From: Actinomycetes bacterium
GTDB lineage: Bacteria > Actinomycetota > Acidimicrobiia > Acidimicrobiales > RAAP-2
Reading direction: 5' to 3'
Assembly: GCA_021822565.1 (NCBI GenBank)
Contig: JAKAQM010000004.1
Location: 1 to 54,991, forward strand
Length of the DNA: 54,991 nucleotides
Below the pieces are notes generated by a model. That model was not told where the DNA came from, searched no databases, and was given only the letters and a program-made list of their open reading frames with translations. Positions 1,266 through 26,685 of the stretch are shown here, one piece after another. Each line of letters begins with the position of its first letter. Position 1 is the stretch's first letter. Made by a program: the position numbers and the translations under genes.

Positions 1266-1302
1266 GGACAGGCAAGAACACACCAACAGATAGGAGAACA
1301 GC

Positions 1303-8326: not shown

Positions 8327-11300
8327 CTGGACTCCTCCCAGCCGTCGGCGTCGAGCAGGGCTCGCCGGAGCATGTCGGCGGTCTCTCCGTCGGGCTTCCA
8401 TCGGCCCCGCTCCTCGGCCTCGAAGAGCCGCTCGCAGATAGAGCGAAGAGCCCAGGGATTGGACCGCTCGAAGAGCTCCCGGTTCTCGGGGTCTGCGACG
8501 TAGGCCTGGGCCACTCGCTCGTACATCCAGGGCTGCGCGACGTGCGCGGTGACGTCGTAGCCGAAGAGGTAGTCGACGGTGGCGGCCATCTCGAAGGCGC
8601 CCTTGTAGCCGTGACGGCGCATGGCGGCCAGCCACTTGGGGTTGACCACACGGGTCCTGACCACCCGGGCAGCCTCTTCGGCAAGGGAGCGGACGAGGGG
8701 CCGAGCCGGGTTGGCCGAATCCCCGAACCACGCCTTCGGATCCCGGCCGGTGAGGGAACGGATCGTGGCCACCATGCCGCCGTGCTCCTGGAGGTAGTCG
8801 TCCGAGTCGAAGATGTCGTGCTCGCGGTTGTCCTGGTTCTTGACGGCGACGTCGATGGCTGCGAAGCGCCGCCGCATCGCCTCGACGGCCGGCACGCCGA
8901 ACCCCTTCCTGCCGTACGACCACCCTGACCAGGTCACGTACACCGCCGCGAGGTCGTCGTCGGACCGCCAGTTGCGATTCTCGATGAGCGGCAGGATGCC
9001 CGCCCCGTAGCTGCCAGGTGCCGGGCCGAAGACCCTCGGGTCCGCGGCACCGTGCGCCCGGACGAAGTTGTCCTCCGGCGCCTCGTCTAGGCCGGCAACC
9101 AGCTCGACGGCCTCGTCGAGCAGGTCGACCATCGAGGGGAAGGCGTCCCGGAAGAACCCCGAGATCCGCAGCGTCACGTCGACGCGGGGGCGTCCCAGCG
9201 TCGGGAGCGGGATCGGTTCGATCCCGACCACCCGACGAGAGCGCTCCTCCCAGACCGGGCGGACCCCGAGGAGCGCCAGCGCCTCGGCCACGTCGTCTCC
9301 CTGCGTGCGCATCGCCGCCGTGCCCCACAGCACGAGGCCGACCGTCGCTGGGAAGGACCCCTCCTCCTCCACGTGACGGGCGAGCAGCGCGTCGGCGAGC
9401 TTCGTGCCGACCTCCCACGCGAGCTGCGTCGGCAAGGCCTTCGGGTCGACGGAGTAGAAGTTCCTGCCGGTGGGCAGGACGTGGGCGCCCCCGCGGGTGA
9501 GCGCCCCGCTCGGTCCGGCCGGCACGTACCGGCCGTCGAGGCCGGCCAGAAGGTTGGCGACCTCGTCTCCCGTCCGGCGCAGGTTCGGGACCAGCCAGTT
9601 GCAGACCCACGCGATGGTCGCTGTCGAGTCGGGACGCGCCACCCAGCCCTCGGAGGCGGCCGTGGCGACGAGGGAGCGGGACGCCTCCTCGATGCGGTCG
9701 AGGTGCTGGGGATCGTCGGGGTCGAGCCCGCGACGCGACGCCACCTGGTCGCGCAGCGAGGGGACGCGGCCCTGTGGCAGGCGGGTGCTCGCAAGGACCA
9801 GGTCGATCAGCTGCTCGTCCGCTGGCACCGACCCGAGGATGTGGAGCCCTCCGCGGATCTGCGCGTCCTTCAGGGTGCACAGGTAGCCGTCGATCGCGAG
9901 CACGACATCATCGAACCCGTCGTCGAGCGCCACGCCGGAGAGGCCGAGATCCTGGTCGATGCTGGCGTCGCGCACGAGCTTCCAGATCCGCTCGCGCAGC
10001 GCGGGGAGCTTGGCTGGGTCGAGGGACTGCAGCTGGGCGTACTCGTCGAAGAGCTGCTCCAGACGGGCGAGGTCGTCGTAGGTGTCGGCTCTGGTCATCG
10101 GCGGGAGGAGGTGGTCGATCACCACGGCATGGCCGCGCCGCTTGGCCTGCGTCCCTTCCCCGGGGTCGTTGACCACGAACGGGTAGAAGAGCGGCACGTC
10201 GCCAAGTGCGGCGTCGGGCCAGCATCCGGCCGAGAGGCCCACGGCCTTGCCGGGCAGCCACTCGAGCGTGCCGTGCTTGCCCAGGTGGACGATCGCATCG
10301 GCACCCCAGACCTCGTCCAGCCAACGGTAGAAGGCGAGGTAGTGGTGGGTCGGAGGGAGCGACGGCGAGTGGTAGACGGCCACGGGGTCGTCGCCGTAGC
10401 CCCGAGGCGGCTGGATGGCGATGACCACGTTGCCGAGCTCGAGGCCGCTGAACACGAGCCGCTCCTCGTGGACCCGGTGGCGACCCGGAGGCGGGCCCCA
10501 CGCCAACTCGAGCTCCTCCTGGGCGGTGCCGGGGAGGGTGGCGAACCACTCGGCGTAGTGCCTGGCGGGCAGGCTGCCGACGGCGATGCCGAGCTGCTCG
10601 CCGGTCATGTCCTCGGCGTCGTAGGTCAGCCCGTCGGCGAGCGCAGCCATGAGGCTGTCGCCGTCGGAGGGTCGCCCCTCGACGCGGTAGCCCGCGCCGG
10701 CGAGCGCGTCGAGGAGGACGAGGGCGGAAGCCGCCGTGTCGAGGCCGACGGCGTTGCCCAGCCGGCTTCGCTTCGTCGGGTAGGCGGAGAGCACGATCGC
10801 GACCCGCCGGTCCGAGGGCGGCGTGGCACCGAGGCCCGCGAGGCGCAGCGCGAGGCCTGCGACCCGAGCCACCCGGTCGGGAATGGTCCGGTAGGCCTGC
10901 ACGCTGGTGCCGAGCTGGTCGCCGTCGTCGACGACCTCGCTGAACGCGAAGGCTGGCGCGATGATGCGGCCGTCGAGCTCCGGGATGGCGACGCCCGAGG
11001 CGACGTCGAAGGGGCCGAGCCCCGCATCGGAGGCCGCCCATTCCTCGCTCGAGCGTCCGGTGGAGGGAGCCTGGAGCACGGGGATGTCCAGTTGCGCCAG
11101 CTCGGAGACGTCCCAGCCTTCGCCCTCGGCGCCCCCTGGCGCGCCGGTCGTGCCGGCCGCGGCCGCCGCGCCTCCTGCGGCGAGCACGGTCGTGACGAGG
11201 ACCCGGGCACCGTGGCGGCGGAGCAGCTCGACGACCGGCGCGGCGGCCCGATCCCGCAGCGAGTAGCACCAGATGGCGAGCGGGCGTCCCCCCGCAGCGC

Positions 11301-11877
11301 TCACGGCAGCGCACAGGTCGTCGACGAACTGGGTGTTCCCTGCGACCAGGTGGGCTCGGTAGAAGACGATGCCCACCACCGGGCCTGCTCTCGACAGTTC
11401 CGGCTCCCGCCAGACGCCGTGGTCCGCGACAGGGCTCGGCGGCTCGAAGCCCCATCCGTCGAAGCAGACGGTGTCGGCTACGAAGCGCAGCAGCTGCTCG
11501 AGGTTGGCGGGGCCTCCGTAGGCCAGGTAGGCGAACGCCTCGGTGACCGTGGCGCTGGGCACGGTCGAGGCCGCGGTCAGCTCCGCGTCCGGGGCGGCTT
11601 CGCCGCTGAAGGCGAGCAGCGCGATCCCCTGCTCGGCGCACTCGGCCCGCAGACGGTCGAATCCTTCCGCCCACGCCTGGCGACCGCCGAGAAGGCGGAC
11701 CAGGACACAGCTGGTTCCGTGGAGGTCGCCGACGGGGTCGGGTGCCCAGGTAGTCGAGGCGCTCACCGCCCGGAAGCCCTTCGGCAGACCCTCGACCGCG
11801 GTACGCAGCGCGAGCAGGTCGGTGCTCGTGGACACGATCACGTGGATCCGACCTGCGGTTGCGACCGGCGTACTCAC
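8323..11877 (-). CDS. cobN: Cobaltochelatase subunit CobN
   Basis: HLGKHGTLEWLPGKAVGLSAGCWPDAALGDVPLFYPFVVNDPGEGTQAKRRGHAVVIDHLLPPMTRADTYDDLARLE...; GTG start at 11877, about 1184 aa. Confidence 0.96.
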   Translation of the reverse strand: MSTPVATAGRIHVIVSTSTDLLALRTAVEGLPKGFRAVSASTTWAPDPVGDLHGTSCVLVRLLGGRQAWAEGFDRLRAECAEQGIALLAFSGEAAPDAELTAASTVPSATVTEAFAYLAYGGPANLEQLLRFVADTVCFDGWGFEPPSPVADHGVWREPELSRAGPVVGIVFYRAHLVAGNTQFVDDLCAAVSAAGGRPLAIWCYSLRDRAAAPVVELLRRHGARVLVTTVLAAGGAAAAAGTTGAPGGAEGEGWDVSELAQLDIPVLQAPSTGRSSEEWAASDAGLGPFDVASGVAIPELDGRIIAPAFAFSEVVDDGDQLGTSVQAYRTIPDRVARVAGLALRLAGLGATPPSDRRVAIVLSAYPTKRSRLGNAVGLDTAASALVLLDALAGAGYRVEGRPSDGDSLMAALADGLTYDAEDMTGEQLGIAVGSLPARHYAEWFATLPGTAQEELELAWGPPPGRHRVHEERLVFSGLELGNVVIAIQPPRGYGDDPVAVYHSPSLPPTHHYLAFYRWLDEVWGADAIVHLGKHGTLEWLPGKAVGLSAGCWPDAALGDVPLFYPFVVNDPGEGTQAKRRGHAVVIDHLLPPMTRADTYDDLARLEQLFDEYAQLQSLDPAKLPALRERIWKLVRDASIDQDLGLSGVALDDGFDDVVLAIDGYLCTLKDAQIRGGLHILGSVPADEQLIDLVLASTRLPQGRVPSLRDQVASRRGLDPDDPQHLDRIEEASRSLVATAASEGWVARPDSTATIAWVCNWLVPNLRRTGDEVANLLAGLDGRYVPAGPSGALTRGGAHVLPTGRNFYSVDPKALPTQLAWEVGTKLADALLARHVEEEGSFPATVGLVLWGTAAMRTQGDDVAEALALLGVRPVWEERSRRVVGIEPIPLPTLGRPRVDVTLRISGFFRDAFPSMVDLLDEAVELVAGLDEAPEDNFVRAHGAADPRVFGPAPGSYGAGILPLIENRNWRSDDDLAAVYVTWSGWSYGRKGFGVPAVEAMRRRFAAIDVAVKNQDNREHDIFDSDDYLQEHGGMVATIRSLTGRDPKAWFGDSANPARPLVRSLAEEAARVVRTRVVNPKWLAAMRRHGYKGAFEMAATVDYLFGYDVTAHVAQPWMYERVAQAYVADPENRELFERSNPWALRSICERLFEAEERGRWKPDGETADMLRRALLDADGWEESR

Positions 11878-12599
11878 GTGTGCGCCTCTTGGCGTGTGCC
11901 GAGACTGCAGCCTTCGCACGTGCGGCCGCCCGACGTGCGGTACCACAGGCAGCAAGCGGAGCGCCGCCATTCCCAGTCGGCGCCGTGCGTGTCGAACCTC
12001 CCGGTGCCCGCCAGCCACGGCGCGTGTGCGAGGAGCCGATCCGCGCGGCGTCGGATCATGAGACGCTCGCTGGTGTCGCCGCGGTCGCGAGCCGAGCCTT
12101 CGACCGCCCGGAACGCTGCTGCCGAGGAGGCTGCGACGTTGGCCCAGGCCAACCGCTTTCCGAGGCGCTGCGATGCACGCGCGGCGGAGACGAACCCGAC
12201 GAGGTGCGAGGTGAACGCCGCCTCGGCGATCCCCCGGGCGTCCTCCGCCTCGCCGAGGGCGTCGGATCGGAAGCGCAGCGCCTTCGCACGACCTTGGTGG
12301 ACGCGCACCGACGTTGCCTCGGCCGCGGGAGAAGGCCAGGGCAGCCCGAGCGCGAAGGCCGCCAGGCTGACCGCAGCCACCCGATAGGCGTAGGACTGGA
12401 CGAGGAGGGACGCCGCGACGGTTCGATCGCCAGCGGTGTGCGACGCGCCCTCGTCGACGGCGGCTGCGAGCTCCTGCGGACCGATGGCGTCGCACTCGTG
12501 CCAGCCGACTTCTGTCTGCGGGGGATCTCCGCAGGATGCCCGCAGGTGGTCGACCCGGGCTTGCACGGCCGCCAGCACCTCTTCGAGGCGGGTGGTCAC
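11874..12599 (-). CDS. FhuF-like ferric iron reductase / (2Fe-2S)-binding family protein
   Basis: C-terminal RRSACCLWYRTSGGRTCEGCSLG = CC-x10-C-x2-C, the FhuF-type [2Fe-2S] motif; helical N-terminal region. Confidence 0.8.
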   Translation of the reverse strand: MTTRLEEVLAAVQARVDHLRASCGDPPQTEVGWHECDAIGPQELAAAVDEGASHTAGDRTVAASLLVQSYAYRVAAVSLAAFALGLPWPSPAAEATSVRVHQGRAKALRFRSDALGEAEDARGIAEAAFTSHLVGFVSAARASQRLGKRLAWANVAASSAAAFRAVEGSARDRGDTSERLMIRRRADRLLAHAPWLAGTGRFDTHGADWEWRRSACCLWYRTSGGRTCEGCSLGTRQEAHT

Positions 12600-14152
12600 G
12601 CCAGGGCTCCCTCGGAGAGGATCCGGTCGAGCGCCGTGAGGTCGAGGTGCGTCTCGAGGGTGTCGGCCAATCGGTCGATCCGCTGCTCGCGGGCAACCGC
12701 GAACGATCCCGCGCGCGTCACCCGTTTGCGCACCTTCGTCGCGACCCGATCGAGGAAGGCCGCCCGCGCCGCGTCGGCCTCGAGCAGGCCGTGCAGCGTG
12801 GTGCCCCATACCGTGCCCCCGGCCGGCGTGGTGCCGATCGCGCCGTCCGCGGTTCCGTCATCGAGGCGCACCAGCGCCCGCCCCCACGCTGCGACGACGC
12901 CGTGGTGGATCTGGTACCCGCTCGCTCGCCGCCCGAACAGGCGACCGTCCCGACGGCGGGTGACCTTGTCGGGACCGAAGGTCGTCACCGCGTCGAGGAG
13001 GCCGAGACCTTCCACGGACGAGTGGGACGATTCCACGCCGCCGGGGTCGCAGATCGTGCGGCCGAGCATCTGGTAGCCGGCGCAGATCCCGAGCACCGTG
13101 CCGTGGATCGTCGCGACGGCGCGGTCCAACCCGCGGCTCCGCAGCCAGGCCAGGTCGTCGACGGTGCGCTTGGACCCGGGGATGACGAGGAGGTCCGGCC
13201 GCCCGACGTCGCGGGCGTCGGCGACCCAGCGCAGTCGTACCCCCGGCTCCAGCCGAAGCGGGTCGACGTCGGTGAAGTTGGCGATGTGAGGCAGTCGCAC
13301 CACGGCGACGTCGAGCAGGTCACCGGGCTCGGGGAACGGGGTGCGACCGGCCGAAAGGGGACCGGCGACGGCGTCCTCGCCTGTGGGTAGGAGCTGGAGC
13401 GGCCGGGCGAGGGCGAGCGAGTCCTCACTGTCCGTCTCGGCTCCCTCGAGCCACGGGACGACGCCGAGGGTCGGCACGCCCGCACGCGTCTCGAGCCCGG
13501 CCGTCCCGCCGGAGAGCAGCGCCAGATCGCCGCGGAACTTGTTGATCACGAAGCCCTTCACCCGGCGGCGGTACTCGTCGGGCAGGAGGGCGACGGTCCC
13601 GAAGAGCGCGGCGAACACGCCGCCGAGGTCGATGTCGCCGACGACGACGGCCGGGAGGTCCGCCTCGTGGGCCAGGCGGAGGTTGACGATGTCGGTGTCG
13701 AGAAGGTTGATCTCCGCCGGGCTGCCCGCTCCTTCGAGGATGACCACGTCGAAGCGTGCGCGCAGGTCGGCGAGGGCCCCGAGGACCAGGCCGAAGAGCT
13801 CTGGCTTGAGCCGGTGGTACTCCGCCGCCGTCATCGTGCCGAGCGGGCGGCCCATCACCACCACTTGGCAGCAGGTGTCCCCCATGGGTTTGACCAGCAC
13901 CGGGTTCATCGCGACCTCAGCTTCGGCCCCGGCCGCCGTTGCCTGCCATGCCTGTGCCCGAGCGATCTCGTGGCCGGCTGGCGTGACCGTCGAGTTGTTC
14001 GACATGTTCTGCGCCTTGAACGGTGCCACCCGAGCCCCCTGCCGTGCGTAGTGACGGCAGAGCCCGGCCGCGATCGTGCTCTTGCCGGCATTCGACGTGG
14101 CGCCGCACACCATCACTGCGCCTGAAGGAGCCGATCCCGCCCGCTGGTGCAC
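12596..14152 (-). CDS. cobQ: Cobyric acid synthase CobQ/CbiP (start uncertain: GTG 14152 or ATG 14113)
   Basis: AVMVCGATSNAGKSTIAAGLCRHYARQGARVAPFKAQNMSNNSTVTPAGHEIARAQ...GKSTIA..ICAGYQMLGRTICDPGGVESS; stop in GTGA overlap. Confidence 0.95.
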   Translation of the reverse strand: MHQRAGSAPSGAVMVCGATSNAGKSTIAAGLCRHYARQGARVAPFKAQNMSNNSTVTPAGHEIARAQAWQATAAGAEAEVAMNPVLVKPMGDTCCQVVVMGRPLGTMTAAEYHRLKPELFGLVLGALADLRARFDVVILEGAGSPAEINLLDTDIVNLRLAHEADLPAVVVGDIDLGGVFAALFGTVALLPDEYRRRVKGFVINKFRGDLALLSGGTAGLETRAGVPTLGVVPWLEGAETDSEDSLALARPLQLLPTGEDAVAGPLSAGRTPFPEPGDLLDVAVVRLPHIANFTDVDPLRLEPGVRLRWVADARDVGRPDLLVIPGSKRTVDDLAWLRSRGLDRAVATIHGTVLGICAGYQMLGRTICDPGGVESSHSSVEGLGLLDAVTTFGPDKVTRRRDGRLFGRRASGYQIHHGVVAAWGRALVRLDDGTADGAIGTTPAGGTVWGTTLHGLLEADAARAAFLDRVATKVRKRVTRAGSFAVAREQRIDRLADTLETHLDLTALDRILSEGALA

Positions 14153-14164
14153 CCTTGACGTCTC

Positions 14165-14345
14165 CCGCGTCGAGCTCTTCGTCGGCACAGGTGTCCTGGC
14201 TCCCGGATCGACGCTCGCCCCGGCCTTCCAATCCCGATGGACCGTGGCCTCAGCTGGGATCTGCTCCCCGGTTACAGTTGCGGGACAGCCCCGGTTTTCC
14301 ACCGGCGTTCCCTGTAGCCGTCCCGGACGTTACCAGCACTCGGTC
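14165..14345 (-). promoter_or_regulatory. Cobalamin riboswitch upstream of the cobQ polycistron
   Basis: Minus strand reads acagggaacGCCGGTGGAAAACCGGggctGTCCCGCAACTGTAACCGGGgag...GGAAGGCcggg...GAGCCAGGACACCTGTGCCGACGAAG; B12-box and core elements visible. Confidence 0.88.
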
Positions 14346-14381
14346 GAACCCGCGAAACCACGCCCACCTCTCGCCACCGCC

Positions 14382-15188
14382 GTGACCGTCCCGCCTCGCG
14401 TGCTGCTGCTCGGGGGAACGACCGAGGCCGGCGGTCTGGCCGACGTGCTGTCCGCACGTGACGACGTGTCCGCGGTGACCTCGCTGGCGGGACGGACGGC
14501 GGCGCCCCCCGCCGTGCCCGGACGCCGACGGGTCGGCGGGTTCGGCGGCACCGGCGGCCTGGTCGCGTACCTCCGATCGGAGCGCATCGCTGCCGTCGTG
14601 GACGCCACCCACCCCTTTGCCGAGGTGATGCGGTGGCACGCGTACGACGCCTGTCGCGAGGCCGGGGTGCCGAGGCTCCGCCTCGAACGGCCTCGGTGGC
14701 AGGCGCAGGGCGGGGACCGCTGGACGGTCGTTCCCGACGTGGCAGCTGCCGCAGCCGTCATCTCGGCTGGTCCGGCACGGCGGGTGTTCCTCGCCACCGG
14801 TCGGGGCGACCTGTCGGCGTTCGTCCCTGGCGTCGACGGGCGACGCTGGTGGCTGGTCCGCTCGATCGATCCGCCGGCGCGATTGCCGCTGCACCCTGCA
14901 GAGGTCGTCCTCGCCCGTGGTCCGTTCAGCGTCGACGGGGAGGTGGAGCTCATGGAGCGACATCGGGTCGACCTCGTGGTCACCAAGAACAGCGGAGGGG
15001 ACGCCGCCGCCGCCAAGCTCCACGCAGCTCGCCGGCTGGATGTCGCCGTCCTCGTGATCGACCGGCCTCCTTCGCCGGACGGCCCGTCGGCCGCGACCGT
15101 CGGCGATGCGCTCGAGTGGCTGTGTGCGTCGCTCGGGCTCCGACCCGTGGACGAGGGACGACCGCGGCCCGCGCTCAGGGGCGGCTGA
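14382..15188 (+). CDS. cobK: Precorrin-6A reductase CobK/CbiJ
   Basis: RVLLLGGTTEAGGLADVLS...SLAGRT...VGGFGGTGGLVAYLRSERIAAVVDATHPFAEVMRWHAYDACREAGVPRLRLERPRW. Confidence 0.92.
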   Translation: MTVPPRVLLLGGTTEAGGLADVLSARDDVSAVTSLAGRTAAPPAVPGRRRVGGFGGTGGLVAYLRSERIAAVVDATHPFAEVMRWHAYDACREAGVPRLRLERPRWQAQGGDRWTVVPDVAAAAAVISAGPARRVFLATGRGDLSAFVPGVDGRRWWLVRSIDPPARLPLHPAEVVLARGPFSVDGEVELMERHRVDLVVTKNSGGDAAAAKLHAARRLDVAVLVIDRPPSPDGPSAATVGDALEWLCASLGLRPVDEGRPRPALRGG

Positions 15189-17640
15189 CGTCGCCGGCGG
15201 CGACCTCCGCGGGGCCAGGGCCGCCGACCGCGGCGGCGACTGCGTCGAGGGTGGGGCCGCTGGCGCCGCCGCGGTGCTGGGTGGACAGCGCCGCGGCCAC
15301 GTTGGCGAAGCGGGCGGCGGACAGCGCGTCGTCTCCGTTGGCGAATCGCGCCAGCATGGCGCCGACGTGGACGTCGCCGGCGCCGGTCGTGTCCACGGCG
15401 GCGGCTCGGTGCCCGGGCACGTGCGCAGGTGCCATCCCCTGACGGGCGACCCAGCAGCCACCCGGTCCGACCCGCACCACGGCGATGCCGCCGGGGGCGA
15501 GCTGTTCGGCGAGCGCGGCTGCAGCCTCCGCCGGCGTGCCTGCCCCGGTACGCCCAACAGCCTCGCGCTCGCTCGCGCTGAAGAGGTTCACTCGCCCGAG
15601 CACCGCGCCGACGGGATCTGCGGGGGGCGCTCCGAGCGGCCCGGGGTCCACGGCCAACAGGTGCTCAGGGCTCAGCCCGTGCACCCATGACACGATCGCG
15701 GGCCCGGCAACGGGGTAGAGGAGGTCGTAGCCCGACACGTAGACCGCGTCGCCGGCCTCCAGGACGATCCGCCCGAGGAAGCCGGCGTCCAGCCGCGACT
15801 CGATCCCGGGGGAGGTCACGAACGTGCGCTCGCCGTCGGCTTCGACGACGCCGACGGTGAACCCCGTGTCCTCTCCAGCGCCCGGCGGGATCAGGGCCCG
15901 GATGCCGGAGACCTCGAGGTCCCGCGCCACGTGGCGCCCGAAGGCGCCGTCTCCGATCAGGCCTGCGTACGCACCGGGCAGCCCGAGGCGTGACGCCGCG
16001 CTCAGGACGTTGAACCCTCCGCCGCTGGCCAGGGTGCGGTCGCTGGCGATCACGTCTCCACCACGGCTCGGCAGCGCGTCCACGTGTACGAGGATGTCGA
16101 GGAGGATGCTGCCCACCAGCACCAGCCGGCTGGGCGGAGCGGCGGTGGGGACGTACGCCTCCGGCATGGGGCTCGCGGTCGGCGTCACCGCGATCGTCGC
16201 GTCGCGCCGGGTGCTCGGAGCCATCGTGGCGGAGCAGCTGCGACCCCGGCGTGCGCGTGCGGTCAGCCCCCACCCGGCGATCGACACGGCCGCAGCCACG
16301 GCGAGCCCCAGCCCGAACCCGAAGCTGCCGTCGCCCACCAGCCCGCCGGCGAGCGGCCCGGTGTAGAGCGGCGACGCCGTGGTCACGAGCGCCACCGCCG
16401 AGCCGGCCGCGAAACCGGCGAGTCCCGGCACGTCCACGGCCCGCGGGTCGTCCACGGCCCGTGTGGTGGTCGTGCCGGCAGGCGTGCGTCGGGCCGATGC
16501 GCGCGTCGTGCTGATCATGTCCGCCAGCACCACCCCGGCCCAGGCGCAGAGCCCGGCCGCGAGCAGCGTCAGGAAGCTCTCGAACGGGCCGAGGAACCCG
16601 GAGCGGCCGATCATGAGCCACAGCCCGGCGCCGCACACCACGGCGCCGTCGACCAGGACAGTGCGGCTGCGGCGGATCCGGACGCCGAGCGCGAGCAGCG
16701 TGAGCCCCGACGAGTAGCAGGCCAAGTCGGACTCGGCGAGCATGCCGCCGGCCGCGACCAGCAGGAAGGGCGTCGAGATCCAGGCGGGGAGCGCCGCTCC
16801 GATCGGCCCGACCGGGTCCAGGGCGGTGGCCAGGCCGTGGACCTTCGTGCTCAGGAGGTAGCCGGTGACGACCAGGACCGCGGTCGGCAGTGCTGCGCCG
16901 CTCGTGACCCAGCCGACGATCGATCGGGCCCGCTCGTCCAACGGCAGGTACCGGCTGTAGTCGGGGGCGAGGTTGACCCAGCTGATGCCGGTCCCTGCCG
17001 CCAGGATCCCGCCGGCCACGAGCACCGTTCGCAGCGACGCCGGGTGGCCGGCGGCGAGACGGGCGACGTCGACGTGCACCAGGAGCACCGGGAGAACGGC
17101 GACCGTGAGCAGGCCGAACCCGACGGCGGCGAGCCGCTGAAAGCGCAGGATCGCGCCGTGGCCGAGGACGCCGAGGACGAGCGACGCGCCGATCATGACG
17201 CCGAGCGCCGCCGCGTCGACGGCCGCTCCGGCTCGAACCCCGAGGGCGGCGTGCGCTGCAGCGACCAGGGCCCACGCGCCGATGACCGACGTCACCACCT
17301 CCCAGCCCAGCACGCTCACCCAGCCCACTGCCGCCGCGACGAGGTTGCCGGTCCGCCCCAGTGCCCGGCGCGAGAGCACGAGGGCCGGCATGCCGGCGCG
17401 CTGGCCGGCCACCGACACTGCTCCGACCAAGAGGAACGACACCGTCGTCGCTGCGATCGCGGTCACCAGTGCCTGGGCCAGGTCGAGGCCCATCGCGGCG
17501 AGGATGGCGCCGAAGACGACGCCGAGGATCCCGAGGTTCGCGGCGAACCACACCGGAAAGAGGCTCCTGGCGCGTCCATGGCGCTCGTCGGGGGGCACCG
17601 CTTGGATGCCGCGCTGTTCGATCCAGGCGTGTCCCGTCAC
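15175..17640 (-). CDS. Fusion: NCS1-family (purine/cytosine/HMP-type) permease with C-terminal PfkB-family carbohydrate/nucleoside kinase
   Basis: N-term WIEQRGIQAVPPDERHGRARSLFPVWFAANLGILGVVFGAI (NCS1 signature), about 12 TM; C-term LVLVGSILLDILVHVDALPSRGGDVIA...SGGGFNVLSAASRLGLP...AAAVDTTGAGDVHVGAMLARF (PfkB signatures); single uninterrupted 821-aa ORF. Confidence 0.9.
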   Translation of the reverse strand: MTGHAWIEQRGIQAVPPDERHGRARSLFPVWFAANLGILGVVFGAILAAMGLDLAQALVTAIAATTVSFLLVGAVSVAGQRAGMPALVLSRRALGRTGNLVAAAVGWVSVLGWEVVTSVIGAWALVAAAHAALGVRAGAAVDAAALGVMIGASLVLGVLGHGAILRFQRLAAVGFGLLTVAVLPVLLVHVDVARLAAGHPASLRTVLVAGGILAAGTGISWVNLAPDYSRYLPLDERARSIVGWVTSGAALPTAVLVVTGYLLSTKVHGLATALDPVGPIGAALPAWISTPFLLVAAGGMLAESDLACYSSGLTLLALGVRIRRSRTVLVDGAVVCGAGLWLMIGRSGFLGPFESFLTLLAAGLCAWAGVVLADMISTTRASARRTPAGTTTTRAVDDPRAVDVPGLAGFAAGSAVALVTTASPLYTGPLAGGLVGDGSFGFGLGLAVAAAVSIAGWGLTARARRGRSCSATMAPSTRRDATIAVTPTASPMPEAYVPTAAPPSRLVLVGSILLDILVHVDALPSRGGDVIASDRTLASGGGFNVLSAASRLGLPGAYAGLIGDGAFGRHVARDLEVSGIRALIPPGAGEDTGFTVGVVEADGERTFVTSPGIESRLDAGFLGRIVLEAGDAVYVSGYDLLYPVAGPAIVSWVHGLSPEHLLAVDPGPLGAPPADPVGAVLGRVNLFSASEREAVGRTGAGTPAEAAAALAEQLAPGGIAVVRVGPGGCWVARQGMAPAHVPGHRAAAVDTTGAGDVHVGAMLARFANGDDALSAARFANVAAALSTQHRGGASGPTLDAVAAAVGGPGPAEVAAGDVSRP

Positions 17641-17704
17641 CGGCGGCGCACTGTAGCGCGAGCCTCCGCTGTCGAGCGGGGGTGCTCCCCGCGCGCTGCG
17701 CTAC

Positions 17705-17858
17705 CATCGTGTCGCTGCAGTGCTCGCGAAGCCGGTGCGAGCCCGGAGCGGTCCCGCCACGGTGACCGGGGAGTGGCCCTTGCGAAGCCACCGGCTGCGC
17801 CCGGCCTCTGAAGGCGGGGGGCGCGGATCTCGGAGCCAGGACACTGGCAGCGGCAAGA
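17705..17858 (+). promoter_or_regulatory. Cobalamin riboswitch upstream of the cobI polycistron
   Basis: gaaGCCGGTGCGAGCCCGGagcGGTCCCGCCACGGTGACCGGGgag...agccaccggctgcgcccggcct...GGAGCCAGGACACTGGCAGCGGC; gtcgctgc/gcagcggc can form P1. Confidence 0.9.
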
Positions 17859-17882
17859 ATTGCCTCGTTCCACGGGAGATGG

Positions 17883-18647
17883 TTGATGGGCTCGGCCCTG
17901 GTCGGTGTCGGGGTAGGTCCCGGCGATCCCGGCTTGATCACGATCAAGGCGCTGTCGGAGCTGCGCGGTGCCGATCGCGTGTTCGGGCCGAGCATGTCGG
18001 TCGACGTGGTCGGGCGGGCCGAGTCGATCGTGCGGCAGGCGGCCCCCGACGTCGAGGTGGAGCGGCTGGTGTTCGCCATCGTGGAGGATGCCGCCGCTCG
18101 CCGAGCCGCCCACGAGCGGGCGGCCGACCGCGTCGCCGAGTGCCTCGCCGCGGGCGAGCGCGTGGCGTTCGTGACCCTCGGGGACCCGAACGTGTACAGC
18201 ACGTTCCACCACCTGGCTGCACGGGTGCTCGAGCGGAGCCCCGGCACGCCGGTGACGACCGTACCGGGGATCTGCGCGTTCCAGGACCTCGCGGCGCGCA
18301 GCGGCACCGTGCTGGTGGACGGGGTGGAGCGGCTGCACCTGGTGAGTGCCGTCGCCGGGCCCGAGGCCATCGACGCCCCGCTCGCCGATCCCGAGGCCGC
18401 GGTGGTGGTGTACAAGGGGGGCCGGCACCTGCCCGAGCTGGCCGAGCGCCTGCGTGCGGCGGGACGGCTCGACGGCGCGGTGGTCGGCGAGCTCCTCGGC
18501 CTGCCCGGGGAGCGGGTGGGGTCGCTCGCCCTCGTTGCGGCCGTCCCGGGTGCCTACCTCTCCTCCATACTCGTGCCACCGTGCCGTGAGGGCCACGGCG
18601 AGGCGGCTGGCGACGAGCCGGCTGCCTGCGAGGCGAGCGAGCCGTGA
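17883..18647 (+). CDS. cobI: Precorrin-2 C20-methyltransferase CobI/CbiL
   Basis: ALVGVGVGPGDPGLITIKALSELRGADRVFGPSM...VAFVTLGDPNVYSTFHHLA...TVPGICAFQDLAAR. Confidence 0.93.
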   Translation: MMGSALVGVGVGPGDPGLITIKALSELRGADRVFGPSMSVDVVGRAESIVRQAAPDVEVERLVFAIVEDAAARRAAHERAADRVAECLAAGERVAFVTLGDPNVYSTFHHLAARVLERSPGTPVTTVPGICAFQDLAARSGTVLVDGVERLHLVSAVAGPEAIDAPLADPEAAVVVYKGGRHLPELAERLRAAGRLDGAVVGELLGLPGERVGSLALVAAVPGAYLSSILVPPCREGHGEAAGDEPAACEASEP

Positions 18648-19432
18648 TCTCGTTCGTCGGTGCCGGGCCCGGGGCGCCGGACCTCATCACGCTGCGCGGA
18701 CGTGACCGCCTCGCGGCTGCCGACGTCGTGATCTGGGCCTCGTCTCTCGTGCCCGAAGCCGTTCTCGCGCACGCCCGACCTGACGCCGCCGTGCACGACT
18801 CCAAGATCATGACCCTCGAGGACGTCCTGGCCGTCTATGCCGCCAACCCCGACGCGGCGGTGGTCCGGCTGCACTCCGGCGATCCCTCCGTCTACGGGGC
18901 CATCCAAGAGCAGATCGACTGGTGCGTGGCCAAGGGGCGAGCCTTCGAGATCGTGCCCGGTGTCAGCTCCCTCGGTGCCGCTGCGGCTGCACTCGGACGG
19001 GAGCTGACCATTCCCGGTGTCGCCCAGAGCGTGGTGCTCACCCGCCTCGCCGGACGGACCGCTGCCAGCATGCCGCGGCGCGAGAGCGTCGCCGCGTTCG
19101 CCGCAGCGGGCCCGACGCTCGCGGTGTTCCTGTCCGCAGCCCGGCCGGTCGAGCTGCAGCGCGAGCTGCTCGCCGTCGGCTCTGCCTACGAGCCTGCGAC
19201 GCCCGCCGCCGTGGTGGTGCGGGCGTCGTGGCCCGACCAGCAGGTGGTGCTGACGACGGTGGGAGCGCTGCCCGAGGCCATCGCCGGCACCGGGGCGCGC
19301 ACGACGGTCCTCGTGCTGGTAGGGCCGGCGCTCGAGGGCGCCGGCGCGCGGAGCCATCTCTACTCGCCGTCGTTCGCCCACGCCCACCGCCGCCGTTCGG
19401 CTCCAGGGACCACCACGGGTCGCCCCGCATGA
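18644..19432 (+). CDS. cobM: Precorrin-4 C11-methyltransferase CobM/CbiF
   Basis: ISFVGAGPGAPDLITLRGRDRLAAADVVIWASSLVPEAVLAHA...VVRLHSGDPSVYGAIQEQIDW...TIPGVAQSVVLTRLAGRTA. Confidence 0.95.
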   Translation: MISFVGAGPGAPDLITLRGRDRLAAADVVIWASSLVPEAVLAHARPDAAVHDSKIMTLEDVLAVYAANPDAAVVRLHSGDPSVYGAIQEQIDWCVAKGRAFEIVPGVSSLGAAAAALGRELTIPGVAQSVVLTRLAGRTAASMPRRESVAAFAAAGPTLAVFLSAARPVELQRELLAVGSAYEPATPAAVVVRASWPDQQVVLTTVGALPEAIAGTGARTTVLVLVGPALEGAGARSHLYSPSFAHAHRRRSAPGTTTGRPA

Positions 19433-21117
19433 GCCGGCCTCGAACCACCCAGCCGCCGCTCGACGGCATCGTGGCATCCGTGTCGGTCACGGAGGCAGGC
19501 CGGATGATCGCCGGGCGGCTGCCGTTCCCTCATCACCACGGCAACGCAGCCGGGACGGTCCGCCGGCTGTGGTCGCACGTCGACGGGCTCGTCCTCCTGC
19601 TGGCGACGGGTGCTGCCGTGCGCATCGTGGCACCGCTGCTCGCAGGCAAGGGGGAAGACCCTGCGGTCGTCTGCGTCGACGAGTCGGCGCGCTGGGCCGT
19701 GGCGCTCGTCGGCGGCCACGGCGGTGCCAACGCGTTGGCCCGCGAGGTCGCCGCCCTGCTCGGTGCGGAAGCGGTCGTCACCACCGCAACCGATGCCACG
19801 GGGACCCCCGCGCTCGACCTGATCCCCGGCTTCAGGGCAGCGGGCGACGTCGCCGGGGTGACCGCCGCCCTGCTGGCCGGGCGTTCGCCCGTGGTGGAGA
19901 CGGCCCTGCCCGGGTGGCCCGCCCCGGCGGTGCTCGCCAGCGGCGCCGGCCCCGAGCGGGTCATCGTGACCGACGCCGTGCCCACCGCCGAGGCCGGGGT
20001 GGCCGTGCTGCATCCCCCGTCGCTCGTGCTCGGGGTGGGGTGCTCGACCGGAGCAGACCCCGACGACGTCGACGCGCTCGTCGACCGTGCACTCGGCGAT
20101 GCAGGACTGGCCAGAGCCAGCGTCGGATCGCTCGCGACCATCGACCGCCGCCGGGACCACCCGGCAATCGCGTCTCTCGGCCTCGAGGTGCAGGCGTTCT
20201 CGGCGGCGGAGCTCGGCGCCGTCGCGGTGCCGACCCCGAGCGCCGCCGTCGCGGACGCGGTCGGGACCCCGAGCGTCGCCGAGGCGGCCGCCCTGCTCGC
20301 CGCCGGCTCTGGCGCGTCGCTGGTGGTGGCGAAGCAGCGATCTGCAGTCGGTACCGTGGCCGTGGCCCGGCGCGCGACGCCGGCCGGCCGTCTGTCGGTG
20401 GTGGGGCTCGGCCCTGGTGGCGCCGCCCACCGGACCCTGGCTGCGGCCTCCGCCGTACGCCACGCCGAGGTCGTTGTCGGCTACGGACCTTACCTGGACC
20501 AGGCCGGCGACCTCCTGACTGCGTCGCAGGCCGTGGTCCGCTCGCCGATCGGCAGCGAGGCGCACCGTGCACGCCTGGCGCTTGCGCAGGCCGCCGCCGG
20601 TCGACGGGTCGCCCTCGTGTGCTCCGGCGACGCGGGCATCTACGGCATGGCGTCGCTCGTCGTCGAGCTGGCCGGCGCCGAGGCGCCGGACGTGCAGGTC
20701 GACGTGGTGCCCGGGGTCACCGCCGCGCTCGCCTCGTCGGCGCTGCTCGGCGCGCCGCTCGGTCATGACCACGTCGCCATCAGTCTGTCGGACCTCCTCA
20801 CGCCGTGGGAGGTGATCGAGCGGCGGCTGCGGGCCGCGGCCGACGCGGACCTGGTGGTCGTCTTGTACAACCCGCGCTCGACCGGCCGCACCTGGCAGCT
20901 GCCTGCCGCGCTCGACATCCTGCGGGGACACCGGCCGCCGGCGACTCCGGTGGGGCTCGTCACCGACGCCACCCGGCCCAGCCAGCGCGTGGTGACCACG
21001 ACGCTCGCCGAGGTCGACCCGGCCGAGGTCGGGATGACGACCTGTGTCGTCGTCGGGACCACCGCCACCATGACCGTCGCCGGGCGCATGGTCACTCCCC
21101 GGGGGTACCGGACGTGA
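19429..21117 (+). CDS. CbiG-CobJ/CbiH fusion (cobalamin biosynthesis protein CbiG plus precorrin-3B C17-methyltransferase)
   Basis: N-term CbiG region (LLLATGAAVRIVAPLLAGKGEDPAVVCVDESARWAVALVGGHGGANALAREVA), mid LVLGVGCSTGADPDDVDALVD, C-term LSVVGLGPGGAAHRTLAAASAVRHAEVVVGYGPYLDQAGDL...VCSGDAGIYGMASLVVE. Confidence 0.93.
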   Translation: MSRPRTTQPPLDGIVASVSVTEAGRMIAGRLPFPHHHGNAAGTVRRLWSHVDGLVLLLATGAAVRIVAPLLAGKGEDPAVVCVDESARWAVALVGGHGGANALAREVAALLGAEAVVTTATDATGTPALDLIPGFRAAGDVAGVTAALLAGRSPVVETALPGWPAPAVLASGAGPERVIVTDAVPTAEAGVAVLHPPSLVLGVGCSTGADPDDVDALVDRALGDAGLARASVGSLATIDRRRDHPAIASLGLEVQAFSAAELGAVAVPTPSAAVADAVGTPSVAEAAALLAAGSGASLVVAKQRSAVGTVAVARRATPAGRLSVVGLGPGGAAHRTLAAASAVRHAEVVVGYGPYLDQAGDLLTASQAVVRSPIGSEAHRARLALAQAAAGRRVALVCSGDAGIYGMASLVVELAGAEAPDVQVDVVPGVTAALASSALLGAPLGHDHVAISLSDLLTPWEVIERRLRAAADADLVVVLYNPRSTGRTWQLPAALDILRGHRPPATPVGLVTDATRPSQRVVTTTLAEVDPAEVGMTTCVVVGTTATMTVAGRMVTPRGYRT

Positions 21118-21740
21118 CTGCCCACCCCATCGAGCAGGAGAGCTATCGGATCCTCTCCGAACGTCTCGACCTGTCCGGCCTCCCGCCGCTCAGCCGGGCG
21201 GTCGTCGCCCGAGTGGTGCACGCGACCGCCGACGTGGCGCTGGCCGGCACCATGGTGCTCGACGAAGCGCAACTGCGCTCGGCGGTCGCGATGCTTCGCG
21301 ACGGGGCTCCCGTGGTTGCCGACGTGACGATGGTGGCGGCCGGGATCACCGGCCGCCACGCCCGCTGCTTCCTCGATCGGGTGCCTCGCTCCGGTACGGG
21401 TGACGAGCGGGAGGTCGCCGGCAGGGCAGCGCCGGTGACCCGAAGCGCCCGGGCGATGCGCCTCGCGGCGGCGGCGCATCCGGTCGGGGCGGTCTTCGTC
21501 ATCGGCTGCGCGCCCAGCGCGCTGGTCGAGCTGATCTCCCTCGCTCGAGCCGGCGAGCTCGACCCCGGGCTCGTCATCGCTCTGCCGGTGGGGTTCGTGG
21601 GGGCGGCGGAGTCCAAGTCGGCGCTGCGGGCCAGCGGGCTGCCGGCGATCAGCAATGCCGGCGAGCGGGGCGGCTCGGCCGCTGCCGCGGCGGCCTGCAA
21701 CGCGCTCATCCGGATCGCCGAGGAAGGCCACGGTGCCTGA
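21114..21740 (+). CDS. cobH: Precorrin-8X methylmutase CobH/CbiC
   Basis: HPIEQESYRILSERLDLSGLPPLSRAVVARVVHATADVALAGTMVLDE...PVVADVTMVAAGITGRHAR...VGFVGAAESKSALRASGLPAISNAGERGGS. Confidence 0.95.
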   Translation: MTAHPIEQESYRILSERLDLSGLPPLSRAVVARVVHATADVALAGTMVLDEAQLRSAVAMLRDGAPVVADVTMVAAGITGRHARCFLDRVPRSGTGDEREVAGRAAPVTRSARAMRLAAAAHPVGAVFVIGCAPSALVELISLARAGELDPGLVIALPVGFVGAAESKSALRASGLPAISNAGERGGSAAAAAACNALIRIAEEGHGA

Positions 21741-22641
21741 GGCCGTGCTTCTCGTGGCCCACGGGTCGCGGTCGGCCGCTGGGTGCGGCGAGCTGCTCGC
21801 GCTGGCGGATGCCGTTGCCGAGGCGCGTGCAGGAACGCAGGTGCGTGTCGGGTTCCTCGAGATGAGCGACCCGCCGGCGTCGACCGTGCTCGACGACCTT
21901 CTTCGCGACGGGGCCCGCGACGTGACCGTGGTCCCGCTCATGCTCTTCGCCGCCGGGCACGCCAAGTCCGACGTGCCGGCGCTCGTCCTGGACGCCCGGG
22001 CCCACCGCCGCGGCGCACGCATCGTCTACGGCCGCCCACTGGGCGTCGACCACGCGCTCTTGGCGCTGGCGCGGCGACGGCTCCGGGCTGCAGGTGCGCT
22101 GGGCCTTCCCCTGGCGGTGCTGGCTCGGGGCACCTCCGACCCCGACGCGAACGCCGAGGCCTGGCGAGCCAGCCGGCTGCTCGCCGACATGTGCGAGACG
22201 CAGCTCGTGGTCACGGGCTTCTCGGGGCTGACGTGGCCGACGGTCACCGGCGCCCTCGAGCAGTTGCGCCGTCTGGGCGCCGCGCGCGTGGCCGTGTTCT
22301 CGTGGTTCCTGGCGACCGGCGTCCTGCTGGACCGCATGCGTGCCGACTGGCAGGCGTTCGAATCGGCGACCGGCGTCGGAGTGGTCGACGCCGGGTACTT
22401 CGGCGTCGAGCCGGAGCTGATCGCGCTGGTCTGGGCGCGCGCCGACGAGGCCCGCGCGGGCGCAGCGGCGGCGAACTGCGACGTCTGCGCGTACCGACGA
22501 CCGTTCCCGGGCCTCGCCGATCGCGTCGGGATGCCGATCGGCGTGGGCCACTCGCACCTTGCCGCCGAGCACCGCCACCACGCCGGCCGCGGCACCGGTC
22601 ACGCGCTGCCGGGTCCCGACGAGGGCTGCGCAGAGGCATGA
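21733..22641 (+). CDS. cbiX: Sirohydrochlorin cobaltochelatase CbiX with Cys/His-rich C-terminal tail
   Basis: EAVLLVAHGSRSAAGCGELLALADAVAEA...VVPLMLFAAGHAKSDVPALV; tail NCDVCAYRRPFPG...GVGHSHLAAEHRHHAGRGTGH. Confidence 0.92.
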   Translation: MPEAVLLVAHGSRSAAGCGELLALADAVAEARAGTQVRVGFLEMSDPPASTVLDDLLRDGARDVTVVPLMLFAAGHAKSDVPALVLDARAHRRGARIVYGRPLGVDHALLALARRRLRAAGALGLPLAVLARGTSDPDANAEAWRASRLLADMCETQLVVTGFSGLTWPTVTGALEQLRRLGAARVAVFSWFLATGVLLDRMRADWQAFESATGVGVVDAGYFGVEPELIALVWARADEARAGAAAANCDVCAYRRPFPGLADRVGMPIGVGHSHLAAEHRHHAGRGTGHALPGPDEGCAEA

Positions 22642-22663
22642 CACGCCAGGCATGACGCGCCAC
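22636..22663 (+). repeat. 14-bp near-exact tandem duplication at the cobO start
   Basis: gcatgacacgccag / gcatgacgcgccac (12/14 identical), each carrying an ATGA. Confidence 0.85.
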
Positions 22664-23221
22664 GGACGGCGCGATCGGTCGAGCGCTACTGTCGCGCCCG
22701 TGCCGCGGCCGCCACGCCTCCTCGTGAACACCGGTCAGGGGAAGGGCAAGAGCTCGGCCGCGTTCGGCGTGATGGGACGGGCCTGGGCGAGGGGATGGAC
22801 TGTGGGCGTCGTCCAGTTCGTGAAGAGCGACAAGTGGCAGGTCGGCGAGCGCAAGCTCGCCGCGCATCTCGGGATCGACTGGCATACGCTGGGCGACGGG
22901 TTCACCTGGGAGTCCGACGACCTCGAAGCGACCGAGGCCCGGGGTCGCCACGCGTGGGGCGTGGCCGCCGAGATGATCTCTTCGGGCGGTTACGACCTGG
23001 TGATCCTCGACGAGGTGACCTACATCGTGACCTACGGCTGGGTGCCGGTCGCCGACGTCGTGGCGGTGCTCGCCTCTCGGCCGGAGCGGACCAATGTGAT
23101 CGTCACGGGGCGCAGCGCCCCTGAGGAGATCGTGGCGCTGGCGGACACGGTCACCGAGATGGTCAAGGTGAAGCACGCGTTCGACCAGGACATCCGCGCG
23201 CGCAAGGGGATCGAGTATTGA
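22652..23221 (+). CDS. cobO: Cob(I)yrinic acid a,c-diamide adenosyltransferase CobO/BtuR
   Basis: RLLVNTGQGKGKSSAAFGVMGRAWARGWTVGVVQFVKSDKWQVGERKL...YDLVILDEVTYIVTYGWV...VIVTGRSAPEEIVALADTVTEMVKVKHAFDQDIRARKGIEY. Confidence 0.96.
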   Translation: MTRHGRRDRSSATVAPVPRPPRLLVNTGQGKGKSSAAFGVMGRAWARGWTVGVVQFVKSDKWQVGERKLAAHLGIDWHTLGDGFTWESDDLEATEARGRHAWGVAAEMISSGGYDLVILDEVTYIVTYGWVPVADVVAVLASRPERTNVIVTGRSAPEEIVALADTVTEMVKVKHAFDQDIRARKGIEY

Positions 23222-24600
23222 TCGTCCTCGGCCCGCGCCTCGTCGTGTCGGGCACGCATTCGGGCGTGGGCAAGACCGTGGTGGCGACCGGCCTGATGGC
23301 GGCGTTCCGCCAGCGCGGTTGGCAGGTTGCATCGGCCAAGGTCGGCCCGGACTTCATCGACCCCGGCTACCACTCGATCGCGACGGGCCGCCCGGCGCGC
23401 AACCTCGACGCGTGGATCTGCGGCGCGGACCTGATGGGCCCGCTCGCGGCGAGGGCCGGCAAGGGTGCCGACCTCTTGGTCGTCGAAGGGGTGATGGGCC
23501 TGTTCGACGGCGCCGCGGACGGGTCCCCTTCGTCGACGGCCGAGGTGGCCAAGCGCATCGACGCCCCGGTGGTCCTGGTCGTCGACGCAGCGTCCGTGAG
23601 CCATTCGGTCGCGCCCCTCGTCCATGGCTACCGCACCTGGGATCCTGCGGTGCGTGTCGCCGGGGTGATCCTGAACCGGGTCGGGAGCGACGACCACGAG
23701 GTCATGCTGCGGGCCGCGCTCCGCGACGCGGGCATTCCCGTGTACGGCGCGCTGCGGCGTGACGGCTCGATGCAGTGGCGCAGCCGCCACCTCGGGCTGC
23801 GGCCGGTCGCCGAGGATCCTGCTGCGGTGCGCTCCGCGCTCGACCGTCTCGGCGCGGCGATCGCCGGGAGCTGCGATCTGGAGGGGCTGGCTCACCTCGC
23901 GCGCTCGGCTCCTCCACTTCCCGCTGCCCTGCCCCCCGAGCCTCGGCGGGTCGTGGGCGACCAGCGCTCCCCTCGGGTGGCGGTCGCCGCCGGCGCCGCC
24001 TTCAGCTTCTCCTACCCCGACAACCTCGAGGCGCTCGCCGCCGCCGGGGCGGAGGTGGTCATGTTCGACCCCTGCCTCGACGAAGGGCTGCCGACGGGAA
24101 CGTCCGCGGTGCTGGTCGGCGGCGGGTTCCCCGAGCTGTACGCCGAAGCGCTGGCCGGCAACCTGCCGATGCTCCGGTCCATGGCCGACCACCATCGCCG
24201 GGGCGGGGTGACCTGGGCCGAATGCGGAGGGCTCCTGTGGCTGGCCCGCAGCCTGGACGGGTCCGCGATGGCCGGGGTGGTCGACGCGGACGCGACCATG
24301 GGCGGCGGGCGGGTCCTCGGCTACCGTTCGGCGACGACGACCTGCCCGTCCCCGCTGGGGCCGGCAGGCACGGAGATCCGCGGGCACGAGTTCCACTACT
24401 CCGCGACCCGTCCGGACGGCGATGCCATGGTGCTCGCCGGCAGGCACGGGACGACGACCGGGGGATTCGCCGCTTCGAACCTGCTCGCCTCGTACCTGCA
24501 CGTGCACCTCGCTCCGTACCCGGCCATCGCCGAGGCGTTCGTGTCCGCCGCAGCGCGATCGTCGCCCGGCTCCGCGCCGGGGTCACGGCCCTGGCGATGA
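23218..24600 (+). CDS. cobB: Cobyrinate a,c-diamide synthase CobB/CbiA
   Basis: LVVSGTHSGVGKTVVATGLMAAFRQRGWQVASAKVGPDFIDPGYHSIATGRPARNLDAWI...VEGVMGLFDGA...VGGGFPELYAEALAGN; TTG start in TTGA overlap. Confidence 0.95.
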   Translation: MIVLGPRLVVSGTHSGVGKTVVATGLMAAFRQRGWQVASAKVGPDFIDPGYHSIATGRPARNLDAWICGADLMGPLAARAGKGADLLVVEGVMGLFDGAADGSPSSTAEVAKRIDAPVVLVVDAASVSHSVAPLVHGYRTWDPAVRVAGVILNRVGSDDHEVMLRAALRDAGIPVYGALRRDGSMQWRSRHLGLRPVAEDPAAVRSALDRLGAAIAGSCDLEGLAHLARSAPPLPAALPPEPRRVVGDQRSPRVAVAAGAAFSFSYPDNLEALAAAGAEVVMFDPCLDEGLPTGTSAVLVGGGFPELYAEALAGNLPMLRSMADHHRRGGVTWAECGGLLWLARSLDGSAMAGVVDADATMGGGRVLGYRSATTTCPSPLGPAGTEIRGHEFHYSATRPDGDAMVLAGRHGTTTGGFAASNLLASYLHVHLAPYPAIAEAFVSAAARSSPGSAPGSRPWR

Positions 24601-25862
24601 CCCCTGCCGCCGCCCCGCCGGCGGGCGACGGCGGGGTGCGGGTCGCAGTCGTCGGGCTCCACGGCGGCCACGCCTTCGGCCCCGACGCCGTCCAAGCCAT
24701 CGCCGGAGCAGGCGTCGTCGTCGGCTCGTCGCGCCAGCTCCGCTCGACCGCCTCGCTACGCGCGCCCGGTGCGGACACCGTCGTCCTGGAAGGGCCCATG
24801 GACGCAGTGCTCACGCGCGTGAGGGAATCCGCGGACGCGGGCAGAAGGGTCTGCGTCCTCGCCTCCGGGGACCCTGGCTTCTTCGGGATCGTCAGAGTGC
24901 TGGCAGCAGCGCTAGGGAGCGGGCGTCTGCGAGTGCACCCTGCGCCGAGCTCCGTGTCGCTCGCGTTTGCGAGGCTGGGTCTCAGCTGGGACGACGCCGC
25001 CGTCGTCTCGGTGCACGGCCGCCCGCTCGCCGACGCGGTGGGTGCCGTGCGCTCGTCGGCCCAACGGTCTGTCGCGCTCCTCACCTCTCCGGACAACCCG
25101 CCGCAGGTCGTCGCAGCGGCGCTGCTCGCGGCTGGTGAGCCGCCGGGACCCGAGGGGAGCGCCGTGGTCGCCTCGCGCCTTGCCGAGGAGGACGAAGCGC
25201 TCACGGTCGCAGACCTGGAGACGATCGCGCAGGGAACGTTCGACCCGATGTCCGTGCTGGTCCTCACCGGCCGGAGCCGGAATCGGACCGCTCGGAGCCT
25301 GGCGTGGGGACTGCCGGAAGCCGAGTTCGACCACGCAGCCGGCATGATCACGAAGGCCGAGGTACGCGCCGTGGCGCTCGGGAAGCTCGAACTGCCGGCG
25401 CACGGGGTGCTGTGGGACATCGGTGCCGGCAGCGGTTCCGTCGGGATCGAGTGCGCCCGGCTCCGTCCCGGTCTCGAGGTCTTCGCCGTCGAGCGCGATG
25501 CGGCGCGGGCGCAGAGGATCCGATCGAACGCCGCCCGGCACGCTGTGCGCTTCCCGGTGATCGAGGGGGAGGCTCCCGACGCGCTCGACGGTCTCCCCGA
25601 CCCTGACCGCGTCTTCGTCGGAGGCGGGGGGATCGCGGTCCTCGACGCAGCCCTCGGGCGCCTCAGGCCCGCGGGCGTCGTGGTGGGCACCTACGCCGTC
25701 ATCGACCGGGCGGTGGCGGCCGCGTCCAGGCTCGGCAACCTGGTGGAGCTTGCCGTCAGCCGCGGGGTGATGATGACGACGGGAGGCCCGGGTGTACGGC
25801 TGCGCGCCGAGAACCCGGTGTTCATCTGCTGGGGTCCGCATGCCGATGAGGTCGAGACGTGA
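24597..25862 (+). CDS. cobL: Precorrin-6Y C5,15-methyltransferase (decarboxylating), CbiE-CbiT fusion (CobL)
   Basis: VAVVGLHGGHAFGPDAVQAIAGAGVVVGSSRQL...VCVLASGDPGFFGIVRVLAAAL...GMITKAEVRAVALGKLELPAHGVLWDIGAGSGSVGIECARL. Confidence 0.94.
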   Translation: MTPAAAPPAGDGGVRVAVVGLHGGHAFGPDAVQAIAGAGVVVGSSRQLRSTASLRAPGADTVVLEGPMDAVLTRVRESADAGRRVCVLASGDPGFFGIVRVLAAALGSGRLRVHPAPSSVSLAFARLGLSWDDAAVVSVHGRPLADAVGAVRSSAQRSVALLTSPDNPPQVVAAALLAAGEPPGPEGSAVVASRLAEEDEALTVADLETIAQGTFDPMSVLVLTGRSRNRTARSLAWGLPEAEFDHAAGMITKAEVRAVALGKLELPAHGVLWDIGAGSGSVGIECARLRPGLEVFAVERDAARAQRIRSNAARHAVRFPVIEGEAPDALDGLPDPDRVFVGGGGIAVLDAALGRLRPAGVVVGTYAVIDRAVAAASRLGNLVELAVSRGVMMTTGGPGVRLRAENPVFICWGPHADEVET

Positions 25863-25890
25863 GCATGGCATCGGTCGGTCGGCTCTCGAG

Positions 25891-26640: not shown

Positions 26641-26685
26641 CGGTTGGCTCGGGACCACCGGCCCTGGAGGAGCCGGTCGCATCGG

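Follow-up and report, generated by a model that had tools for sequence, protein, structure and literature searches.

What does a protein built from an NCS1 permease and a PfkB kinase do between two blocks of cobalamin (B12) genes? In the window (the whole 54,991-nucleotide stretch analysed here), which encodes most of a cob pathway, one gene of this kind occupies the minus strand (Table 1). The initial annotation treated a part in B12 metabolism and an unrelated role as equally possible; that balance no longer holds, since the B12 side is now well supported by cob clusters, riboswitches, coupling to cobT in a relative and occurrence of the kinase where CobT is missing. We consider it nearly certain that the fusion belongs to B12 metabolism and probable that it serves the lower ligand. 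Within this frame, we lean slightly towards a one-chain importer-kinase that salvages a precursor of the B12 lower ligand.

Table 1. Positions in the window of the fusion, its parts and the neighboring B12 features
Feature	Position	Strand	Basis or remark
cobA, aminotransferase (cobC/cobD-like), cbiB, cobS, cobU, chelatase-like genes, cobN, cobQ	2410..14302	-	cobN and chelatase-like gene named from sequence and synteny
cobS	5164-5850	-
cobU	5859-6380	-
Cobalamin riboswitch before cobQ	14167..14352	-	Rfam RF00174, 86.7 bits
cobK, precorrin-6A reductase (approximate start)	14352..15188	+	NCBIfam above cut-off
NCS1-PfkB fusion gene	15175..17640	-	821 aa, GTG start, single frame without internal stop
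PfkB kinase domain, residues 505-794	15259..16128	-	Pfam; Foldseek
PfkB catalytic motif DTTGAGD, residues 750-756, catalytic Asp 756	15373..15393	-	Gly 755 and Asp 756 conserved in B12-group kinases
Variable low-confidence linker, ~residues 471-503	16132..16230	-	pLDDT <50 across most; elevated dN/dS
NCS1 permease part, residues 7-470	16231..17622	-	Pfam and AlphaFold2 model
Cobalamin riboswitch of cobI operon, divergent from fusion	17701..17866	+	Rfam RF00174, 39.9 bits, gathering score 31.5
cobI, divergent from fusion	17883-18647	+
cobI-cobM-cbiG/cobJ-cobH-cbiX-cobO-cobB-cobL-cobF operon	17883..26640	+	cobM, cobO and cobL named from sequence and gene order conserved with L031

Architecture of the fusion

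The description of this gene as a single 821-residue ORF combining an NCS1 permease with a PfkB kinase stands. Both Pfam matches exceed their curated cut-offs (PF02133 at residues 15-387, E 3e-40, 138.7 bits against a cut-off of 23.5; PF00294 at residues 505-794, E 2e-32), and the open frame is genuine. Twelve other full-length fused homologues from related genomes are present in our alignment, at 35-91% identity. In comparisons with four homologues, dN/dS is ~0.15-0.3 in the NCS1 and PfkB domains and ~0.6-0.9 in the linker region, a pattern of two structured domains, both under purifying selection, that are held together by a loose tether. The AlphaFold2 model (mean pLDDT 86) consists of long helices followed by a disordered stretch and then the kinase; it fits 12 membrane passes, and helices 1 and 6 show the breaks characteristic of the NCS1 fold. 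Because the number of passes in the model is even, the kinase would lie on the side of the N-terminus, which from the known fold of NCS1 proteins would be the cytoplasm.

Named subfamilies are not reached by either half, with 63 bits against a cut-off of 353 for TIGR00800 (ncs1), 48 against 310 for TIGR02358 (CytX), and 86.6 against 299.65 for the ribokinase equivalog TIGR02152. The top Foldseek matches of the kinase half are ribokinases and YihV, at target-normalised TM scores of up to 0.85. The DTxGAGD and GG...N motifs of PfkB proteins are present, and Asp 515, Gly 540-541, Asn 544, Gly 755, and Asp 756 are conserved in all 24 B12-group kinases, and the active-site residues of the fusion are intact. 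Lys43 of RbsK aligns with a gap throughout this group, and since the conserved residues are the general ribose-binding and catalytic ones, kinase specificity is not readable from them. No sequence feature fixes the substrate, the best matches of the kinase being general ribokinases.

B12 genes and riboswitches around the fusion and its relatives

The gene cobK converges on the fusion, and the two overlap by 14 bp at the 3' end of the latter (15175-15188). Both this overlap and the riboswitch-cobI operon on the other flank had been noted in the initial annotation and are confirmed here, with the correction that the riboswitch in the intervening gap faces cobI and that the fusion has no same-strand riboswitch of its own. 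The minus-strand block from cobA to cobQ reads as a nucleotide-loop assembly cluster without cobT. Leftmost in the B12 region (603-2358, plus strand) are a flavin reductase-like gene and, beside it, a luciferase-like monooxygenase gene.

A survey of the gene neighborhoods of homologues, which the initial annotation had suggested as a check on co-occurrence with cob genes, returned recurrent cob-cluster locations in several gene orders and riboswitches upstream of relatives. The contigs of 11 out of 14 close relatives (L031-L044) also carry cob genes; the other three lie on contigs of 3 to 9 kb, including a 3-kb contig without a cob gene (L036), whose labelling as cob-linked in the tree leaves the result unaffected. 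In these relatives, the fusion is found between cobI and cobK, behind cobK, behind a chelatase gene, or between a chelatase gene and cobO-cobB, and a more distant fusion from the same order (G183, locus L093) is divergent from cobT-cobO-cobB. In eight loci of more distant relatives (L011-L017 and L019), a same-strand cobalamin riboswitch of 93-117 bits lies ~80-260 bp before the NCS1 match. These loci, which are arranged as riboswitch-NCS1 or riboswitch-NCS1-PfkB, are mostly without other cob genes and occupy two well-supported branches of the NCS1 tree. We regard this regulatory arrangement as the strongest independent evidence for a link to B12.

The cobalamin riboswitch is absent at nine NCS1 paralogs of the same order and at 17 loci from a phylum-wide search, and neither a B12 gene nor a riboswitch was found near L091, L092, L094, L096, L097, L098, L106, L040, and L043, several of which are on short contigs. 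Weak riboswitches at the B12-unlinked loci were also considered and rejected, with none at E<=1 and none above the cut-off in longer stretches. A class-wide search with the kinase of family f40 gave no match outside the order of the window among the matches listed. In two genomes of family f62 (L092:4480-8537 and L106:4449-8652), radical-SAM-like and molybdopterin oxidoreductase-like proteins, named by eye, are encoded downstream of the fusion or kinase.

These neighborhoods bear on the idea that the fusion performs ordinary salvage of a nucleoside or sugar (pseudouridine, pyrimidine, or ribose) and lies near cob genes by chance. The wider PfkB family does include E. coli YegV and does occur in GntR-regulated operons without B12 genes; against this stand the eight riboswitch-controlled loci and the several cob gene orders, which make chance implausible, and the placement of the non-B12 homologues on other, separate branches of the trees. 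A predominantly non-B12 setting of the homologues, for instance beside psuG, had been named in advance as evidence against a B12 role: psuG was found beside the kinase in none of the 85 loci searched, which also speaks against a pseudouridine (PsuK) route, and a non-B12 setting was indeed found for a distant subfamily, next to ADP-ribosylglycohydrolase genes. We regard a chance association as highly unlikely.

The riboswitches would also be explained, with no role in making B12, if, under B12 shortage, the protein salvaged a (deoxy)nucleoside and thereby bypassed an enzyme that depends on B12, for example class II ribonucleotide reductase. Turning on B12-independent alternatives is a known function of cobalamin riboswitches. 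Such a bypass is nonetheless very improbable, as it would not lead one to expect the location in cob clusters, the coupling to cobT, or the enrichment of the kinase in CobS-positive genomes that lack CobT, the latter two of which are described below.

Kinase and CobT across the order

The initial annotation recognised no CobT-like ORF in the window, and the genome-wide profile search extends this result: neither PF02277 nor the archaeal/cyanobacterial model TIGR00303 finds CobT anywhere in the 3.0-Mb draft assembly, which is 89% complete. An archaeal/cyanobacterial CobT hidden from PF02277 was considered and rejected, as TIGR00303 matched none of 17 genomes. In L031, the closest relative on a long contig, the cob cluster ends with a gene whose single frame matches both CobT and BluB. 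At the corresponding place in the window, 4 bp past cobF, begins a P-type ATPase fragment of 346 aa (26644-27684, plus strand), so that at least the syntenic copy of cobT is missing from the window. One-frame matches of this kind, indicating BluB-CobT fusions, occur at L031:26-847 (G199:C93:55227-56840, closing the cob cluster) and also in G175, G203, and G211, the last a Bacillota genome. Fusions of bluB and cobT in Actinobacteria have already been reported (PMC8123684).

In relatives, the NCS1-PfkB system is seen either to adjoin CobT or to stand in its place, and family f40 contains both arrangements. One genome (G121) has a riboswitch-NCS1-cobT locus without a PfkB match, in which the NCS1 stop and the cobT start overlap by 4 bp (GTGA), so that this riboswitch-preceded NCS1 gene is translationally coupled to cobT. 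Four others (G040, G087, G152, and G178) carry riboswitch-NCS1-PfkB, with PfkB directly after NCS1, and CobT was not found in them. CobS and CobU are present in G000, G040, G087, G152, G138, and G049, with neither the PF02277 nor the TIGR00303 form of CobT; in G178 (77% complete), CobS was not found and the CobU match is marginal. These CobT absences come from draft genomes that are 77-94% complete.

Across the 136 CobS-positive genomes of the order sample, the window's own included, a B12-group kinase is encoded in 6 of 16 without CobT and in 5 of 120 with it (Fisher p 3e-4). The corresponding counts are 5/10 against 4/99 in genomes at least 90% complete (p 2e-4) and 4/12 against 2/37 by family (p 0.026), all of these being statistics on non-independent genomes from few independent lineages, in which the three within-family contrasts available all run in the expected direction. 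About half of the kinase carriers in the order sample also have CobT (G098, G130, G183, G158, and G039), which indicates that the fusion is not simply a CobT substitute everywhere. G199 and G203, both close relatives, encode BluB and CobT in addition to the fusion, and salvage of the lower ligand would be redundant there.

Adjacency to cobT, in G121 and G183, is also what would be expected if the protein imported and phosphorylated nicotinate or nicotinamide riboside, yielding nicotinate mononucleotide (or NMN as its precursor), the co-substrate of CobT. The PnuC family is known for nicotinamide riboside uptake, and in Lachnospiraceae PnuC follows a related ADP-ribosylglycohydrolase-PfkB pair. 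The kinase is, however, commonest where CobT is absent, and extra NaMN would serve no B12 purpose in such genomes; hence we judge this substrate to be improbable.

A further alternative separates the two halves, with the NCS1 part importing 5,6-dimethylbenzimidazole (DMB), another benzimidazole, or adenine as the free base, and the kinase acting on a riboside that another enzyme makes inside the cell, or having a side role. NCS1 proteins carry mostly bases, and NCS1 without the kinase occurs in six genomes, all six with CobT and four with the riboswitch. In the same vein, the NCS1-cobT operon of G121 may indicate that the carried compound is a base rather than a riboside. Yet no phosphorylase-type gene is seen alongside the NCS1-PfkB pair, and retention of the fusion across a clade of 19 rows argues that both halves share a substrate. 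On balance, we hold the free-base route to be unlikely.

A candidate salvage route and its relation to known systems

The one-chain importer-kinase reading can be set out as follows, with substrate, anomer, direction of transport, and reaction all being what we infer from the comparisons above. The NCS1 half would import a benzimidazole-type riboside, most likely alpha-ribazole, and the PfkB half, attached to it at the cytoplasmic face, would phosphorylate the 5'-hydroxyl of the ribose, producing alpha-ribazole-5'-phosphate. The CobS of this cluster would then join this product to AdoCbi-GDP supplied by CobU. In genomes that have NCS1 and no kinase, the permease would import a free base for CobT. 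The fusion would therefore supply the same product as CobT (PF02277), an NaMN:base phosphoribosyltransferase, through different chemistry and a different fold.

CblS and CblT belong to families other than PfkB and NCS1, and the fusion, with its NCS1 and PfkB parts in one chain, differs from them in build. The resemblance is in function: CblT/CblS of Listeria, Geobacillus, and Lactobacillus coryniformis likewise combine importer and kinase, with alpha-ribazole-5'-phosphate as the predicted product, and gene neighborhoods and the riboswitch scan place importer and kinase together here too, B12-regulated or in B12 loci. CblT/CblS thus provide the functional precedent, as an alpha-ribazole importer and its kinase (PMC6461909, PMC6167548); in L. 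coryniformis they occur where CobT is missing (PMC6167548), and a cblS/cblT riboswitch has been described in Symbiobacterium (PMC9600662). With this precedent already known, any novelty would lie in the NCS1 and PfkB build: we found no paper joining NCS1, PfkB, and cobalamin in the open-access literature, where most subscription papers are missing.

Homologues outside the B12 group suggest a wider context. In Bacillus, Levilactobacillus, Selenomonas, Propionispira, and several actinobacteria, the neighbors of PfkB and NCS1 include an ADP-ribosylglycohydrolase gene, and a gene for a GntR regulator is often present as well. The ADP-ribosylglycohydrolase-PfkB pair is conserved at L051, L053, L054, L057, L058-L068, and L107, in Firmicutes and some actinobacteria. 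E. coli YegV falls in this kinase group, and its gene adjoins yegU, a putative ADP-ribosylglycohydrolase gene; a profile built in this analysis scores YegV at 318 bits, RbsK at 231, and PsuK at 202. Pairs of the YegU/YegV type thus share the wider PfkB group with the fusion and often lie beside NCS1 relatives, but they keep the glycohydrolase, and in the loci scanned they have no cob genes or riboswitch. The psuT-psuG-psuK genes of E. coli likewise combine a transporter with a PfkB kinase, PsuK being a distant relative. No cobalamin riboswitch was found in the scanned homologue loci of Firmicutes, Edwardsiella, and other actinobacteria. In Edwardsiella (L046:4041-15997), an NCS1 and PfkB pair without a riboswitch directly follows genes resembling those for haem uptake, with btuC/btuD-like genes nearby (named by eye); cobT is ~40 kb away.

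ARH1 and ARH3, two characterised members of the ADP-ribosylglycohydrolase family, hydrolyse alpha- but not beta-linked substrates, alpha-NAD included (PMC9738213). As alpha-ribazole is itself an alpha-riboside, alpha-ribosides may be a common theme, and our guess would be that they are the substrates of the ADP-ribosylglycohydrolase-PfkB pairs. A more far-reaching version of the salvage reading, which we put forward tentatively and would not yet bet on as a whole, is that alpha-ribazole is both imported and phosphorylated by the single NCS1-PfkB chain, that this protein has taken the place of CobT in several lineages of actinobacteria, and that it was drawn from a wider alpha-riboside salvage family (ADP-ribosylglycohydrolase and PfkB with NCS1 or PnuC, including E. 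coli YegUV).

If the salvage reading is true, the fusion would represent a second, separately built route for salvage of the activated B12 lower ligand, and it could take over the step left vacant by CobT in organisms whose genes for nucleotide-loop assembly are otherwise present. The fusion would then bear on predicting which cobamide a given bacterium makes and on alpha-ribazole dependence between organisms, and it would be a clear example of a secondary transporter with import linked to phosphorylation. The link to ADP-ribosylglycohydrolases, in turn, provides a testable idea for the unexplained operons of the YegUV type.
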